Shown: piece after piece, positions 5,037 through 11,502 of the stretch
How the letters are laid out: each line of letters starts with the position of its first letter
Position numbering within the stretch: position 1 is the stretch's first letter
Origin: Deltaproteobacteria bacterium
GTDB taxonomy: Bacteria; Desulfobacterota; Deferrimicrobia; Deferrimicrobiales; Deferrimicrobiaceae
Assembly: GCA_020346465.1 (NCBI GenBank)
Contig: CP070783.1
Coordinates: 1,006,272-1,040,585 of the forward strand
Length of the DNA: 34,314 nucleotides
Direction of reading: 5' to 3'
Position numbers and translations under genes: made by a program
The notes under the pieces: model-generated
Database searches by the model: none
Told to the model about the DNA's origin: nothing
Seen by the model: the letters and a program-made list of their open reading frames with translations, nothing else

Positions 5037-6419
5037 TTATATCATGGTGCGGGGGTCAAGAATCTTCTCGATCTCATCTTCCGGCAGCACCTTCTTCTCC
5101 CGGAGAACGGCACGGATCGTCCTGCCCGTGTGGTACGCCTCGTGGGCCAGATCCGCCGCCCTGTCGTAGCCGATCCTCGCCGCCAGGGGGGTCACCATCG
5201 CAAGGCTCTGCTCGATCAGCTCCCCGCACCGCTTCCGGTTCGGGGTGATCCCCGCGACGCACCGCCCGGCGAGCAGGCCGGTCGCCGAGGAGAGAAGCCC
5301 GATCGACTCCAGAAGGTTCCGCGCCATGACCGGGAGCATGACGTTGAGCTCCAGGACCCCGAGCGAGCCGCCGAGGGTCACGACCGCGTCGTTGCCGATC
5401 ACCTGCGCAGACACCTGGATCGCCATCTCCAGCATGACCGGGTTCACCTTCCCCGGCATGATGGAGGAGCCCGGCTGCAGCGACGGAAGGTCGATCTCCC
5501 CGATCCCGCACCGGGGGCCGGAGGACAGGAGGCGGATGTCGTGGGAGATCTTCATCAGGGAGGCGGCAACCCCCTTGAGCGCGCCGCTGGCCGCGACGAG
5601 CGGGTCCTGCGCCCCCATCGCCTCGAACCGGTTCTCCACGGGGCGAAAGGGAATCCCGGTGGCGGCGGCGATCGCGGCGATCGTCCTCGCGCCGAACTCC
5701 GGGTGGGCGTTCAGCCCCGTCCCGACCGCCGTCCCCCCGAGGGGAAGCTCCTCGAGTTCGGCGAAGACGGCGCGCACCCGCCGGATGCCGTGACCGGCCT
5801 GCGCGGCGTACCCGGAGAACTCCTGCCCCAGCGTAACCGGGACGGCGTCCTGCAGGTGGGTCCTCCCGATCTTCAGGACGTCGGAAAGCTCCTCCGCCTT
5901 GGCCGACAGGGCGTCCCGCAGGGACGAAAGGGCCGGCAAAAGGCGCCCCGACAGCTCCCGCCGCGCGGCGATCCGGATCGCCGAGGGGATCACGTCGTTG
6001 CTGGACTGGCACCGGTTCACGTGGTCGTTGGGGTGGACGGGGGAGTTGCTCCCGAAGGGCTTCCCCAGAAGCTCGTTGGCCCGGTTGGCGAGCACCTCGT
6101 TGACGTTCATGTTCGTCGAGGTCCCCGAGCCGGTCTGGAAGACGTCGAGGAGGAACTGGTCGTCGAACGTTCCCTCCAGCACCTCGCGCGCGGCCCGCGA
6201 GATCGCCTCCGCCAGGGGAGGGTCGAGCAGCGAAAGGCCCGCGTTCACCTCGGCGCCGAATCCCTTGATCATCGCGGCGGCGTACACGACCGGCAGCGGC
6301 ATCCGAACGCCGCTCACCGGGAAGTTCTCGAAGGCCCGCTGCGTCTGCGCCCCGTAGTACGCCTTCGCCGGGACCCGGACCTCCCCCATCGAGTCCTTTT
6401 CCGTGCGATATTCCCCCAT
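5037..6419 (-). CDS. fumC: Class II fumarate hydratase
   Basis: 460-residue iron-independent fumarase (fumarate + H2O to L-malate), a homotetrameric TCA-cycle enzyme of the aspartase/fumarase superfamily. The N-terminus has DSMGEVRVPAKAYYGAQTQR. The active-site blocks are GSGTSTNMNVNEVLANRA, THLQDAVPVTLGQEFSGYA and the superfamily signature GSSIMPGKVNP near residues 317-326, whose Ser acts as the catalytic base. Length matches the family (~460). Aspartase is the main alternative; the overall pattern, particularly the ENFPVSG and HPND segments, favours fumarase. The ATG is preceded by GGAGGAG at good spacing. The carbonic anhydrase gene lies 109 bases upstream on the same strand. Confidence 0.93.
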   Translation of the reverse strand: MGEYRTEKDSMGEVRVPAKAYYGAQTQRAFENFPVSGVRMPLPVVYAAAMIKGFGAEVNAGLSLLDPPLAEAISRAAREVLEGTFDDQFLLDVFQTGSGTSTNMNVNEVLANRANELLGKPFGSNSPVHPNDHVNRCQSSNDVIPSAIRIAARRELSGRLLPALSSLRDALSAKAEELSDVLKIGRTHLQDAVPVTLGQEFSGYAAQAGHGIRRVRAVFAELEELPLGGTAVGTGLNAHPEFGARTIAAIAAATGIPFRPVENRFEAMGAQDPLVAASGALKGVAASLMKISHDIRLLSSGPRCGIGEIDLPSLQPGSSIMPGKVNPVMLEMAIQVSAQVIGNDAVVTLGGSLGVLELNVMLPVMARNLLESIGLLSSATGLLAGRCVAGITPNRKRCGELIEQSLAMVTPLAARIGYDRAADLAHEAYHTGRTIRAVLREKKVLPEDEIEKILDPRTMI

Positions 6420-6475
6420 CTCCGGCTCCTCCGCAGATTCGATTCCCCGCAGGGTCCTCCGGTTTCCTCTCCTAT

Positions 6476-6492
6476 TCGGGGACGTTCTTAAA
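6476..6492 (-). repeat. Dispersed 17-base motif, copy 1
   Basis: Read on the minus strand this is TTTAAGAACGTCCCCGA. It matches 16 of 17 bases of a plus-strand copy at 11602-11618. It lies in the 109-base gap between the carbonic anhydrase and fumarase genes. It may be a remnant of a transposon end or REP-like element; two copies in one window are weak evidence. Confidence 0.3.
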
Positions 6493-6528
6493 CTTTTTAA
6501 TGCGGATGGGGTTCCCTTCGACGAACGG

Positions 6529-7170
6529 CTATCCCTCCCCGTTGGAGATCGGCTCGTACTGGCCCACGTCGGGGGAGTAGCGGAAGACCGTTCCGGTGCC
6601 GATTTCGAAGAACCAGGCGTGGACGTGAAGCCGCCCCTTCCGGGCCGCCTCCTGGACGACGGGGTAGGTGCGCAGGTTCTCCATCTGGACCAGGACGTTC
6701 TCCTGGGAGGTCACCGCGAACTTCTTCTCCCCGGACATCCCGGGATAGTTGGCCGAGACCACCTCGAGCGTCCGCTCCCCGTTCCGCAGCCACTCCGCGA
6801 GATGGGGCGTGTCGGCAAAGTGGCTCCGGTCCTTGTGGAGGGCCTTCATCGCCCCGCAGTCGGAGTGGCCGCAGACGACGATGTCCCGGACGTGCAGATG
6901 CACGACGGCGTATTCGACGGCGGCGGCGACCCCCGTCCCGTCGAGGACGTTCTCCGTGTACGGCGGGACGAAGTTCCCGATGTTCCGGTAGATGAACAGG
7001 TCCCCCGGTTGGCCATGGGTGATCAGCGTGGGGACCACGCGGGAGTCGCAGCAGGTGATGAACAGCGCCTCCGGGAACTGGCCGTGCTCGGCCAGCCTCT
7101 GGTAAAGGCCCTTTTGCTCGCCCCAGTACTGGCTCCGGAACCGGTGGATCCCCGTGATCAGCTTCTCCAA
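6529..7170 (-). CDS. Beta-class carbonic anhydrase
   Basis: 213-residue cytoplasmic zinc enzyme interconverting CO2 and bicarbonate. Zinc ligands are visible: Cys40 and the Asp42/Arg44 dyad in CCDSR, then His102 and Cys105 in CGHSDCG. The open frame extends far upstream, antisense to norC, but homology begins at LEKLITGIHRFRSQYW. I therefore place the start at a TTG (7168-7170), about 6 bases after a strong GGGGGAGG ribosome site; no in-frame ATG is suitable. The gene is divergent from norC, with 177 bases between them. Probable job: bicarbonate supply for carboxylations, and perhaps pH balance. Confidence 0.92.
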   Translation of the reverse strand: MEKLITGIHRFRSQYWGEQKGLYQRLAEHGQFPEALFITCCDSRVVPTLITHGQPGDLFIYRNIGNFVPPYTENVLDGTGVAAAVEYAVVHLHVRDIVVCGHSDCGAMKALHKDRSHFADTPHLAEWLRNGERTLEVVSANYPGMSGEKKFAVTSQENVLVQMENLRTYPVVQEAARKGRLHVHAWFFEIGTGTVFRYSPDVGQYEPISNGEG

Positions 7171-7258
7171 AGTCCACCTCCCCCAGGGATGGGTTTGTGG
7201 TTCAATAGTACCGGGGAAACTCCATTCGCTCAAACCGGATTTTCCCCGGCGGGGGCGC

Positions 7259-7272
7259 TTGACGTACGTCAA
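7259..7272. promoter_or_regulatory. CRP/FNR-family operator (DNR/NNR/FNR type) upstream of norC
   Basis: Perfect 14-bp palindrome TTGACGTACGTCAA, matching the TTGAY-N4-RTCAA consensus of FNR and the NO-responsive DNR/NNR regulators. Its centre is 41.5 bases upstream of a start site predicted from the -10-like CATAGT at 7295-7300. That is the standard class II activator arrangement. It predicts that the norCB operon is induced by low oxygen and/or NO. The regulator gene is not in the window. Confidence 0.75.
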
Positions 7273-7294
7273 TGCGATCGGGGCGCGGAGGATC

Positions 7295-7300
7295 CATAGT
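7295..7300 (+). promoter_or_regulatory. -10 element of the norC promoter (CATAGT)
   Basis: CATAGT matches TATAAT at 4 of 6 positions. It lies where a -10 should be if transcription starts at about 7307, with the FNR-type palindrome replacing the -35 box. The 5' leader would be ~41 bases, carrying AAAGGAGG ahead of the ATG at 7348. Confidence 0.5.
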
Positions 7301-7347
7301 GGACCCGGTTCGCCAGAGAAACCCGGAAAGGAAAAGGAGGTAGCCGG

Positions 7348-8049
7348 ATGACCAAGAAGACCGCCTTCTGGATCTTTCTGCTCGGCACGCTCTCCTCGGC
7401 GGTCCTGTTCCTCGCGGCCACGTGGGACACCCACCGGCAGGTGGAGACCCTGTCGAACGTGGACAAGCTGTCCGAACAGGTCGTGGCGGGGAAACGGACC
7501 TTCGAGAAGTACAACTGCAACGACTGCCACACGATCCTGGGCTTCGGCGGCTACTACGCCCCCGACCTGACCAAGGTGGTGCAGCGCATCGGGGCCGACG
7601 GGATCCGGTACCGGGTGAAAAGCCCCGAGCTGGCCTTCGCCAACTCGTGGAGGAAGATGCCCAACCTGAATGTCTCCGATGCCGAGATCGAGGACCTGAT
7701 CGCCTTCTTCACCTGGGTGGGGGAGATCAACAACAACGACTGGCCCCCCCAGGACAGCAAGAAACGGCTGTCCCGGGGCGAGCAGGCCATGGTGGCCACG
7801 GTGGGGGTGTCGCCCGGTGCCGCGGTCTTCCAGACGAAGGGGTGCATGAACTGCCATGCCCTCAACGGAACGGGGGGGACCTTCGGACCCGCTCTGGACA
7901 CGATCGGGCGGGAACTTTCCGCGGCGGAGATCCGGACGTACGTCCGCGACCCGAAAAGCGTCGACCCGAAGTCGATGATGCCGGCGCAGACGGGGCTTTC
8001 CGACCGGGAGCTCGAGGAAGTGGCGAAATTCCTTTCCAATCGAAAATGA
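7348..8049 (+). CDS. norC: Nitric oxide reductase subunit C with an additional C-terminal cytochrome c domain
   Basis: 233-residue membrane-anchored cytochrome c. One N-terminal helix (residues ~6-25) is followed by the NorC-type domain with heme motif CNDCH (57-61), the family context GFGGYYAPDLTKV and the axial-Met region WRKMPN. NorC is normally ~150 residues with one heme. Here a second class I cytochrome c domain follows, with heme motif CMNCH (166-170) and a likely Met ligand in SMMPAQTGL. It should pass electrons from a donor through heme 2 and heme 1 to the heme b/FeB site in NorB, in the periplasm. norB starts 10 bases downstream. A strong AAAGGAGG ribosome site precedes the ATG, with an FNR-type operator upstream. 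Confidence 0.88.
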   Translation: MTKKTAFWIFLLGTLSSAVLFLAATWDTHRQVETLSNVDKLSEQVVAGKRTFEKYNCNDCHTILGFGGYYAPDLTKVVQRIGADGIRYRVKSPELAFANSWRKMPNLNVSDAEIEDLIAFFTWVGEINNNDWPPQDSKKRLSRGEQAMVATVGVSPGAAVFQTKGCMNCHALNGTGGTFGPALDTIGRELSAAEIRTYVRDPKSVDPKSMMPAQTGLSDRELEEVAKFLSNRK

Positions 8050-8059
8050 GGAGGCCCTG

Positions 8060-9388
8060 ATGGAATACCGTTCCCAGAAAATCGCCTACTGGTACTTCGT
8101 GGCGGCGCTTCCGCTGTTCGTCCTGCAGGTTTTCCTGGGGCTTTATCTCGGCAGCAGCTACGCCTTCACCATCCCGCAGGAGATCGTGGACGTATTCTCC
8201 TTCGCCACGGCGCGGTCGATGCACACCAATCTCCTGGTCCTGTGGATGCTGCTGGGCTTCATGGGGGGCGCGTACTATATCGTGCCCGAGGAGACGCAAT
8301 CGGAGATCTACTCCCCGGGCCTGGCCTACTTCCAGCTCGTCGCCCTGCTGGTCACCGGCGTCGTCGCGCTGATCGGCTTCTTTTTCGGGTGGACGCAGGG
8401 ACGCCCCCTCCTGGAGATCCCCCGGCCGCTCGACCTCGTGGTGGTCGTCGGGGCGCTGATCTTCCTGTTCAACATCGGGATGACGATGCTGAAAGCGAAC
8501 CGGTGGACCGTCATCCAGGGAACGCTCCTGGGCGGCCTGGTCTTCCTCGCCCTCCTCTACCTGTTCGGAATCCCCTTCTACAGGAACGAGGTGATCGACT
8601 GGTACTACTGGTGGTGGGTGATCCACCTCTGGGTGGAAGGGGCGTGGGAGCTCGTCACGGGGGCCATCCTGGCGTTCATCCTGATGAAGCTCACCGGGGT
8701 GGACCGGCACGTCGTGGAGAAGTGGCTCTACGTCGAGATCGGCCTCTTCATGTTCACGGGGATCGCCGGGACCGGGCACCACTACTACTGGATCGGCGCC
8801 CCCCGCTACTGGCTCTGGATCGGCGGGATCTTCTCGGCGCTCGAGCCGCTCCCGATCCTGCTCATGGTCATCGACACGATGCTGCACGTCAAGGAGCGCA
8901 AGACGCAGATCGTCAACCCGCTCGTCTGGACGTACGCGATCGGCTGCGCCGTCTTCCACATGATCGGCGCCGGGGTGTGGGGCTTCGCGCACACGCTCCC
9001 GCAGATCAACTACTACACGCACGGCTCCCAGGTCACCGTCTCCCACGGCCACCTGGCGTTCTTCGGCGCCTACGCCCTGCTGAACCTGACGACCTTCTAC
9101 TTCGCGATGCCGAAGCTGAAAGGGATCGAGGTCTTCGATGACCGGCGCGGAAAGATCGGGTTCTGGACGATGAACGTCGCGATGATGATCATGGGGCTCA
9201 CGTTCGGCGTGGCCGGGGTCCTGCAGGCGTACATCGAGAGGGTGCTCGGGATGGGGTACATGACGGCCCAGTCGTACATGCGGCTGTGGATGCTGGTGAC
9301 CATCGTCGCGGGGGTCTTCTTCCTGGCCGGGCTGCTCACCACCGTCACGGATCTGCTCACCCTGAGGCCCGCCAAGCAGGAGGCATGA
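8060..9388 (+). CDS. norB: Cytochrome c-dependent nitric oxide reductase, catalytic subunit
   Basis: 442-residue, ~12-helix heme-copper-oxidase superfamily protein that reduces 2 NO to N2O. The cNOR ligand set is complete. Low-spin heme His55 (RSMHTN) pairs with His331. FeB ligands are His189, His240 and His241, with Glu193 (HLWVEGAWE). Glu197 and Glu262 (SALEP) are the conserved acidic residues, and His329 (SHGH) is the heme b3 ligand. The Glu at position 193, a hallmark of NorB, separates it from cbb3 oxidase CcoN. The sequence closely follows classical NorB (YWWWVIHLWVEG, GTGHHYYWIG). The maturation genes norQ and norD are absent nearby. The next gene encodes a shortened relative of the same superfamily. 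Confidence 0.93.
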   Translation: MEYRSQKIAYWYFVAALPLFVLQVFLGLYLGSSYAFTIPQEIVDVFSFATARSMHTNLLVLWMLLGFMGGAYYIVPEETQSEIYSPGLAYFQLVALLVTGVVALIGFFFGWTQGRPLLEIPRPLDLVVVVGALIFLFNIGMTMLKANRWTVIQGTLLGGLVFLALLYLFGIPFYRNEVIDWYYWWWVIHLWVEGAWELVTGAILAFILMKLTGVDRHVVEKWLYVEIGLFMFTGIAGTGHHYYWIGAPRYWLWIGGIFSALEPLPILLMVIDTMLHVKERKTQIVNPLVWTYAIGCAVFHMIGAGVWGFAHTLPQINYYTHGSQVTVSHGHLAFFGAYALLNLTTFYFAMPKLKGIEVFDDRRGKIGFWTMNVAMMIMGLTFGVAGVLQAYIERVLGMGYMTAQSYMRLWMLVTIVAGVFFLAGLLTTVTDLLTLRPAKQEA

Positions 9389-9526: not shown

Positions 9527-10480
9527 ATGGATCGGTACACCAAGGCATTCGTTGTCGCTTCACTCGCGTATTTCCTCCTGGCGGCCGTGCTGGGCGCCTG
9601 GATGGGGTCCGCCACGCCCGCGGGGTGGGTTCCGTTCGCCCACATCCATTTCAACCTGCTGGGCTTCATGTCGATGATGATCTTCGGCGTGGGGTACTTC
9701 ATCCTCCCCCGGTTCAACGGCCGTACCCTGCACTGGCCTTCGTGGGTCCCGCTCCACTTCTACGTGGCCAACATCGGCCTGATCGGAATGGTCGCCACGG
9801 CGCCGGAGCGCCCCTCGACGGGGTTCGCCCTCTTCGCCGGACTGTCGGTCGTGTCGGTGGCGATGTTCGTGATCAACCTCGGCGCGACGATGCTCATCGC
9901 GCCGGCGGTGGAGGAGGAAGAGGAGGAGATTCCCGCGCGTCCGCAGGCGCCGCCTGCCCCGCCCCCCCCTTCTTCCCCGCAGGTGGATATCCACCCCGAC
10001 ATGCGGGTGGGGGAGATCCTGACCCGGTGGCCCCAGACGGTGGAGGTCTTCGTGGCGAACGGGTTCGCCTCCCTGGGGAACCCGGAGCACCGGGAGCAGG
10101 TGAAGCAGATCCCCATCACGCTCCGGATGGCGTGCCAGCGGCACAACGTCGACCTCGAGCCGATGGTCGCAAGGCTTGCCGCCGCGGCCGGGGGAGAGCC
10201 CCGGGCGGCAGCGGCCGGCGGGGGGGCGGGGACAGGCCCCTCCGGAGGGGGGGGCCGCAGGGGAGGGCTCTCCCGCGGGGAGCCGATCCGCCCGGACAGC
10301 GTCCTCGGCGATATCCTCGCCGCGTATCCGGAGACGGAGAAGGTGTTCAAGCGGTATTACGGGGCGGGCTGCTTCTCCTGCCCCGGCCAGGCGACCGAAA
10401 GCGTCAAGCAGAGCGCGATGATGCACAACGTGAACGAGAAGGAGATCCTGACGGAGCTGAACCGGGCGGCCGGTTTCTGA
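9527..10480 (+). CDS. Heme-copper-oxidase-like membrane domain fused to two DUF1858 domains
   Basis: 317-residue fusion. Residues ~1-130 form four helices resembling a shortened subunit I of NOR/cbb3 oxidases; FAHIHFNLLGFMSMMIFG keeps two His and resembles the low-spin heme helix of NorB. After an acidic and Pro-rich linker (~131-152) comes a DUF1858 domain (~156-215) lacking the cysteine pair. A Gly-rich linker follows, then a second DUF1858 domain (~256-317) with CFSC (Cys282/Cys285). DUF1858 occurs with hybrid-cluster proteins and ScdA/RIC-like nitrosative-stress proteins. Its position after norB suggests a role in NO handling, such as sensing or redox coupling to NOR, or helping NOR assembly in place of NorQD. 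Function unproven. AAGGAGG precedes the ATG. Confidence 0.8.
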   Translation: MDRYTKAFVVASLAYFLLAAVLGAWMGSATPAGWVPFAHIHFNLLGFMSMMIFGVGYFILPRFNGRTLHWPSWVPLHFYVANIGLIGMVATAPERPSTGFALFAGLSVVSVAMFVINLGATMLIAPAVEEEEEEIPARPQAPPAPPPPSSPQVDIHPDMRVGEILTRWPQTVEVFVANGFASLGNPEHREQVKQIPITLRMACQRHNVDLEPMVARLAAAAGGEPRAAAAGGGAGTGPSGGGGRRGGLSRGEPIRPDSVLGDILAAYPETEKVFKRYYGAGCFSCPGQATESVKQSAMMHNVNEKEILTELNRAAGF

Positions 10481-10512: not shown

Positions 10513-10914
10513 ATGATCGATCGGATGCAGGAACTGCTCGAGGCGGAACGCGCGGGGGTGCAGTGCCTCTCGGCGATGGCGGACGAGGCCCCGGAGGGGG
10601 AGAAGAAGGATTTCCTCCTGTTCCTCCGGAACGAGGAGGGGCGGTTCTGCACCGGGCTGCACCGCCTCATCGAGGAGAGGGGGGGAACCCCCAACGACCG
10701 GGTCGGATCGTTCGTGGACAAGGTCCTCGCCCTCGCGGGGGAGGCCGAGCGGCTCAGGCTCCTCTTGAAGGGGCAGGCGTGGGTCGTCCGCAAGATCGAC
10801 GAGATTCCGGCCGCGGAGAGGACCCCGGGGGAAAAGGCGTTCTTCGACGAGATGCGCGAGGCGCACGTGGTCAACATCGAGGCGTGCCGGAAATACCTCC
10901 CCGCGGGGGGATGA
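10513..10914 (+). CDS. Small ferritin-like four-helix protein (DUF6306-like)
   Basis: 133-residue, fully helical soluble protein, starting at the ATG that follows GGAGGGTGCG. Blocks such as ELLEAERAGVQCL, FLRNEEGRFCTGLHRLIEE, GQAWVVRKIDEI and EAHVVNIEACRKYL resemble what I know of the DUF6306 ferritin-like family. Glu/His residues are spaced as in di-iron four-helix bundles (ExxER, EEGRFxxxLH, EAHxxNIE), but metal binding is not demonstrated. It lies 32 bases after the DUF1858 fusion gene and is the last gene of the NOR cluster. By context it may protect against or repair NO or iron damage. Confidence 0.7.
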   Translation: MIDRMQELLEAERAGVQCLSAMADEAPEGEKKDFLLFLRNEEGRFCTGLHRLIEERGGTPNDRVGSFVDKVLALAGEAERLRLLLKGQAWVVRKIDEIPAAERTPGEKAFFDEMREAHVVNIEACRKYLPAGG

Positions 10915-11007: not shown

Positions 11008-11148
11008 CCCCTCCGCTACGCTCGACGCAATCGAAGACCCCCTCCGAGGCGGCGAAGCCACTCTGGACGCCTTAACGACGGGCGCTCGCGCTCCGGTCCC
11101 GGTGACGTGGTATGCTGTCAGAAAATATCCGAATCCGGAGGAGACGCC

Positions 11149-11502
11149 ATGCACACGGCGAAGTGGAGCGACATCGAGGGAAAGGCGGTCACCGACCCCG
11201 GCGCGGAGGGCGTCACCATCCGGGTCCTGATGGGGGACAACGTCGGGGCGCCCACCTTCACGATGCGGCACTTCGAGATCGCCCCCGGTGGACGCACCCC
11301 CTTTCACGCCCACGCGTGGGAGCACGAGGTCTACATCCTCTCCGGCAGGGGGAAGGTCCGGCAAAAGGACGGGGAACGGGAGGTGGGACCGGGCTCCTTC
11401 GTCTACGTGCCCGGAGACGAGGAGCACAACTTCGCCAACGCCGGCGATACGCCCTTCACCTTCCTGTGCGTGATCCCCGCCAGCCTGCCCTGTATCAAGT
11501 AG
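11149..11502 (+). CDS. Single-domain cupin protein
   Basis: 117-residue small beta-barrel protein. Cupin motif 1 is GGRTPFHAHAWEHEVYIL (the two His and the Glu as metal ligands) and motif 2 is PGSFVYVPGDEEHNF (the last His). Family members bind Fe, Mn or Zn and act as small dioxygenases, isomerases or sensors; the substrate cannot be told. A good CCGGAGGAG ribosome site precedes the ATG. It is separated from the NOR cluster by 234 bases and converges on the ACIII operon, so it is probably its own unit. Confidence 0.85.
   Translation: MHTAKWSDIEGKAVTDPGAEGVTIRVLMGDNVGAPTFTMRHFEIAPGGRTPFHAHAWEHEVYILSGRGKVRQKDGEREVGPGSFVYVPGDEEHNFANAGDTPFTFLCVIPASLPCIK

Follow-up and report, generated by a model that had tools for sequence, protein, structure and literature searches.

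Introduction

Single-unit members of the heme-copper-oxidase homology (HCOH) proteins reportedly consist of four transmembrane (TM) helices, are homologous to heme-copper oxidases (HCOs) and nitric oxide reductases (NORs) and adopt a MAPEG-like fold, as Pei, Li, Kinch and Grishin are said to have set out in 2014 (Protein Sci 23:1220). The available parts of two later papers cite Pei et al. (2014) for HCOH proteins, including those with a single four-helix unit (PMC4602095; PMC11218638), and the available part of one of them draws a comparison between a four-helix homotrimer and both the oxidase core and MAPEG trimers (PMC4602095). We found no function in the literature for any four-helix relative of the HCOs, nor any biochemical evidence of heme, trimer or activity for a member of the four-TM (4TM) family discussed here. 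Other described systems touch on the same themes. The Cys pair (Cys30/31) of the ScdA_N domain in YtfE has been implicated in supplying the di-iron site with electrons (PMC9052748), NnrS is an NO-regulated membrane protein reported to be heme-copper containing (PMC1274295), and a DUF1858 gene of Bradyrhizobium is strongly NnrR-dependent (PMC6710368). In Thermus, the NOR has a third membrane subunit, and three small genes, nsrRST, have been named nearby, while a fourth gene of that cluster goes unmentioned in the available part of the study (PMC5748679).

Here we describe a gene from a 34,314-nucleotide stretch of DNA (the window) that joins a 4TM domain to two DUF1858 domains and lies directly downstream of norCB. 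The 4TM unit and DUF1858 are each known already, and no description of a 4TM-DUF1858 fusion beside a cNOR was found in the literature, the full text of Pei et al. (2014) aside.

The Fused Gene and Its Domains

The fused gene (9527-10480, + strand, ATG start) encodes 317 amino acids. Its GC3 is 0.90, its codon usage is in line with that of the window's genes and dN/dS, calculated against three relatives, is ~0.10-0.32 for each folded domain; the ORF is real and conserved, and purifying selection acts on it. The 4TM domain (9527-9910, + strand), a single HCOH-like unit of the HCO fold according to hhalign, AF2 and Foldseek, has TM helices at residues 3-28, 34-63, 73-90 and 98-123 in the AF2 model, as foreseen in the original prediction for a four-helix N-terminus with FAHIHFNLLGFMSMM, a stretch that was located as well. 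In the model of the domain alone, the second helix starts at residue 35 and the other boundaries are unchanged. Past the TM part, the model spans an acidic/Pro linker (residues ~124-154), the first DUF1858 (D1, 161-220), a Gly-rich linker (~223-254) and the second DUF1858 (D2, 260-314), both linkers lying where that prediction had them.

With 56.9 and 42.9 bits against PF08984, D1 (9989-10159, + strand) and D2 (10298-10468, + strand) are both above the curated cut-off of 32.2 bits, and the solved DUF1858 structures 2k5e and 2k53 come up for the fused protein in a fold search. D2 carries the expected CFSC motif (residues 282-285, codons 10370-10381). D1 had been called Cys-less, and it does lack the CxxC, but a single stray Cys, C203, is kept elsewhere in the domain. 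A D1-like domain without CxxC also precedes the CxxC domain in distant fused homologs from Nitrospinota (L090) and Zixibacteriota (L107). The whole protein reaches 79.3 bits (1.5e-22, cut-off 44.95) with the NCBIfam model TIGR03980, the redox disulfide domain associated with the hybrid cluster protein (Hcp). The proposed redox-disulfide reading of DUF1858 is supported. Hcp can be dismissed as a partner in the window's own genome, where PF03063 has no match.

The RIC/YtfE/ScdA proteins resemble the fused protein in that a small thiol domain of a related type (matches cross between ScdA_N and DUF1858) is attached to a metal site in an NO-stress context. However, the fused protein has no hemerythrin di-iron domain (no hemerythrin match, and 15.8 bits vs. 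204.7 for TIGR03652, the model for RIC/YtfE/ScdA), and its own metal site would be a membrane heme. The likeness to NnrS is that of an NO-regulated membrane protein; membership of the NnrS family was rejected, as Pfam gives no PF05940 match for the window protein at E<=1 and only 5 of 16 relatives match it, weakly (best 0.003).

Relationship of the Four-Helix Domain to Heme-Copper Oxidases

A phmmer search of PDB sequences with the 4TM domain gave no match, and it was profile and fold comparison alone that showed relatedness. In hhalign, the 4TM profile aligns to residues 290-442 of NorB, which are helices 9-12, with 98.1% probability (E 6.6e-14), and H39/H41 fall on the two heme ligands of NorB helix X, H329/H331. 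Another sampling of the family aligns to NorB helices 1-4 (E 2.9e-13), and alignment to two helix sets is expected for a repeated unit. The closest PDB folds of the AF2 model (pLDDT 92.4) are cbb3 oxidase (3mk7_D, TM 0.82), NOR (3o0r_B, TM 0.80) and ba3 oxidase, with MAPEG enzymes ranking after them, all at weak to modest Foldseek E-values (best 0.017) and a probability of 1.00. Searched as a whole, the fused protein matches COX1 below the Pfam threshold and, weakly, positions 339-396 of ccoN in NCBIfam, the helix X region. A structural match to HCOs was looked for and found, and the relationship first suggested from the letters of the sequence is borne out by both hhalign and the Foldseek hits to cbb3 and NOR.

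Eleven positions are invariant in 50 aligned members (H39, H41, G23, G46, G54, Y57, P61, F63, N82, F114, and N117), and helix 2 is the best-conserved stretch among the 50 homologs. The HxH motif, H39-I-H41 (9641-9649, + strand, invariant in 50/50 homologs), holds the predicted heme ligands. The loop between helices 2 and 3 is positively charged, with a mean of 3.3 K/R, which predicts a cytoplasmic location for both termini and for the DUF1858 domains and an HxH that faces outside, as in HCOs. Residue 58 (codon 9698-9700), located where helix 2 meets the cytoplasmic side, is His in nearly all stand-alone 4TM homologs, but L107 and the lineage of the window have Phe there.

The domain shares its helix order, the helix-X HxH and Foldseek TM-scores of 0.80-0.82 with cNOR NorB and cbb3 CcoN (PF00115), but it has 4 helices instead of 12, the FeB/CuB ligands are missing and its chain is without the helix-II or helix-VI/VII ligands. 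An HCO/NOR catalytic subunit has twelve TM helices and, within a single chain, six His as metal ligands; the fused protein has four helices and only two of the ligand positions. The N-terminus had been regarded as a shortened oxidase-like domain; it is instead a complete four-helix unit of the single-unit HCOH kind, belonging to a separate family, and not a truncated oxidase. What sets the window protein apart from single-unit HCOH proteins is its fusion to two DUF1858 domains, its position beside norCB and the F that replaces a near-invariant H at 58.

Distribution of the Family and Its Pairing With DUF1858

The family search returned stand-alone 4TM proteins of ~130-150 aa, along with two-unit (G085) and three-unit (G067, G102) forms. 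At least 80 loci were found, mostly in Nitrospirota/Nitrospira, anammox planctomycetes, Deltaproteobacteria and Nitrospinota, with one Zixibacteriota among the matches listed. The 4TM family is widespread, and fusion to DUF1858 is rare within it. Within the phylum, a sample of 394 genomes served for counting 4TM, DUF1858 and NorB; 4TM is present in 52 of them, fused to DUF1858 in 23 and with a nearby DUF1858 gene on the same contig in 25. Among the matches listed, 4TM and DUF1858 are fused or no more than 1.5 kb apart in 41/80 loci, a frequency of pairing from which the window protein can be understood as a fusion of two usual neighbors. Stand-alone loci often have a gene for a CxxC DUF1858 and then one for a CCGG-type ScdA_N. 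Anammox and many Nitrospirota copies are without a DUF1858 neighbor, so this partner is not universal.

The three-unit tandem proteins, of 415 and 429 aa, are encoded at L034 (3-1250, + strand; G067:C193) and L190 (1782-3071, - strand; G102:C90). HxH occurs in all three units of both, and the units of the G067 protein are 37-40% identical. In the two-unit protein (L035, 2281-3264, + strand; G085), the first unit no longer has the second HxH His. The window's own genome holds a second, divergent 4TM paralog of 144 aa with HVHMLLVGF (L037, 5141-5575, - strand; C1, ~1.212 Mb). At several anammox loci (L078, L087, L095, L103, and others) the gene after 4TM encodes, judged by eye, a BadF/HgdC-type ATPase and not DUF1858. 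Finally, genes for COX1-family proteins of ~450-515 aa lie divergent from 4TM-DUF1858 operons (L123:2932-4371, - strand; also L081, L091, L094, L108, L109, L111, L127, and L129). These proteins have invariant H76, H228, H357, H359, and D282 and no FeB/CuB HH pair, and are possibly an unclassified NOR/oxidase type. At L196 (6442-8813, + strand), a COX1-like gene is followed by what appears by eye to be a protoheme farnesyltransferase-like gene.

Genomic Context and Regulation

The fused gene is preceded by a gene for a norC-like diheme cytochrome c (7348-8049, + strand; Cytochrom_C 3e-18, NorB_cytochrome_c-like 3.6e-8, two CXXCH) and by norB, encoding a cNOR-type catalytic subunit (8060-9388, + strand; COX1 5.7e-67). 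This NorB has H55, H189 with E at +4, H240/H241 and H329/H331, and is 43% identical to Thermus NorB. A terminator between norB and the fused gene, at first suspected by eye, did not turn up in a scan. Downstream are a gene for a DUF6306 four-helix protein (10513-10914, + strand; PF19825 9e-23), which is likely in an operon with the fused gene, and one for a small cupin (11107-11502, + strand; Cupin_2 5.7e-19), whose position downstream of the fused gene is conserved across relatives of the same family.

An FNR/HcpR-type box, the perfect palindrome TTGACGTACGTCAA (7259-7272, + strand), lies 76 bp upstream of the norC start. It equals TTGACnnnnGTCAA, the HcpR consensus (PMC1274295), and the 2.32-Mb genome has no more than 6 TTGACN4GTCAA sites, this one included. 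The norC promoters of relatives carry the same type of box, and a congener without norCB (L006/L152) has a near-identical site (TTGACGTACATCAA) immediately before its fused gene. In G001, G005, G015, and G019 the fused gene sits beside a carbonic anhydrase gene, without norCB and with an FNR/HcpR-type palindrome directly upstream. The pattern TTGA[CT]N4[AG]TCAA was found within 300 bp in 18 of 118 distinct upstream regions; 200 dinucleotide shuffles gave 0.17 on average and never more than 2. A box of the FNR type could also serve a general anaerobic regulator. In most genomes of its own family (10-11 genomes, co-regulated), the fused gene comes immediately after norCB. Co-expression of 4TM-DUF1858-DUF1858 with the cNOR is the best reading.

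Recurrent neighbors of 4TM genes include Crp/FNR regulators, cupins, NifU, ferredoxin, Mrp, YgbA_NO and 12-helix COX1-family proteins. In a Nitrospinae locus (L099), the 4TM gene is divergent from a RIC-type gene (ScdA_N plus hemerythrin) and a DUF6306 gene, and this DUF6306, encoded beside the RIC/YtfE-type gene, is 46% identical to that of the window. In Thermus, a gene for an unnamed 125-aa 4TM protein, 36% identical to the window's, comes after nsrR, a DUF542 gene (nsrS) and a cupin gene (nsrT), and is divergent from norCBH. In Thermus thermophilus SG0.5JP17-16, the 4TM homolog is locus THTHE16_RS11325. The Thermus cluster differs from the window in having separate genes with no fusion and an Rrf2 regulator (NsrR). 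Around Thermus norCBH, the stretch examined has no norQ or norD. The 4TM protein is not the Thermus NorH, to which it has no similarity (BLASTP E 1.6), and common ancestry of the window's cupin with NsrT was discarded as there is no detectable homology. In the nic clusters of Thermus (L054), the 4TM gene (5989-6366, + strand) and a YwiC-like gene (6410-7507, + strand) both follow nsrRST.

The presence of NifU, Mrp, ferredoxin and RIC-type neighbors would suit a platform for Fe-S/heme repair, in which 4TM would hold the DUF1858 pair close to the respiratory complexes of the membrane, any heme being incidental. We consider this quite unlikely, since a mere anchor would not need an invariant HxH or a helix 2 that is the most conserved part of the domain. 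The linkage to Crp/FNR regulators, and to Rrf2/NsrR regulators in Thermus, points toward the main rival, an NO/redox sensor in which the 4TM heme binds NO and alters DUF1858 thiol state or partner binding, with signaling as the output. Purifying selection on the CxxC-less D1, as in a binding rather than a redox domain, also fits this role. However, there is no attached output domain (kinase, cyclase, or DNA-binding), and NO sensing in other bacteria is already a known function of the linked regulators; a sensor is thus unlikely, although it deserves to be kept in mind.

Association With Nitric Oxide Metabolism and NOR

Defining close NorB as E <= 1e-60 to the NorB of the window, we found it in 27/52 genomes with 4TM vs. 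10/342 others (table 27/10/25/332, Fisher 1.9e-19) and, at the level of ~95 families, obtained a table of 8/9/6/72 (p 3.3e-4), with both tests counting related genomes that are phylogenetically non-independent. An association of the homologs with NOR and nitrosative-stress genes was looked for and found, and the suggested link to NO metabolism is strengthened by this cNorB co-occurrence, by the FNR/HcpR-type boxes and by the YgbA_NO, RIC, NsrR and Crp/FNR neighbors.

Close NorB is absent from the genomes of 8/23 fused genes, several genomes, G087 among them, have close NorB but no 4TM match, and some genomes of the window's own family have the fused gene unlinked to norB. A dedicated partner of NOR is not supported by these counts. 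They also bear on the idea of an electron-transfer subunit of cNOR, whose 4TM heme would pass electrons from thiols or quinol to NorC/NorB. Such a subunit would account for the co-regulated position directly downstream of norCB in 10-11 genomes of the family, and the third membrane subunit of Thermus NOR offers a precedent (PMC5748679). That subunit, NorH, is nevertheless without BLAST similarity to the 4TM protein (E 1.6), and a tight NOR subunit is improbable given that the 4TM protein is found without NorB and NorB without 4TM. The same two-way separation leaves unsupported the earlier proposal of a NOR assembly factor that replaces NorQD in FeB-site loading. NorQ (CbbQ_C) is indeed absent from the window's own genome and the gene adjoins norB, but the protein has no metal-chaperone or ATPase feature, and norQ/norD are likewise missing from the stretch examined around norCBH in Thermus; we hold this role to be very improbable.

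Proposed Function

We give an even chance to the reading that the protein binds heme in the membrane and deals with NO, its DUF1858 pair serving as a thiol relay. In this membrane heme protein, the N and C termini would lie on the cytoplasmic side and a 4TM homotrimer would rebuild the threefold oxidase fold, with heme held by HxH pairs of neighboring protomers in the outer membrane half. The 4TM unit probably forms a trimer, by analogy with the homotrimeric MAPEG folds that it matches and with the natural three-unit proteins that have HxH in each unit. The CFSC domain may relay electrons from a cytoplasmic thiol or ferredoxin donor to the heme, much as the ScdA_N Cys pair is implicated in serving the di-iron site of YtfE, or it may alternatively act in sensing or transnitrosation. 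The protein would bind or reduce NO and so shield the membrane and Fe-S/heme proteins, while cNOR clears the bulk.

A more specific and doubtful version is a C3-symmetric four-helix homotrimer with up to three inter-subunit hemes, fed by the CxxC as a thiol-driven NO-binding/-reducing enzyme and resembling the oxidase/NOR unit before its triplication. Were this the case, the three-unit HxH proteins (G067, G102) would be evolutionary intermediates.

Concluding Remarks

Four-helix relatives of the HCOs span anammox bacteria, Nitrospira, Nitrospirota, deltaproteobacterial lineages and Thermus, and the fusion described here puts the 4TM unit and its usual neighbor DUF1858 in one polypeptide, providing a concrete, purifiable test case. 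The question that it poses is whether one third of the oxidase fold, as a trimer, can bind heme and also react with NO. If so, these proteins would add a new element to NO handling by bacteria of the nitrogen cycle and would bear on the origin of oxidases and NO reductases.
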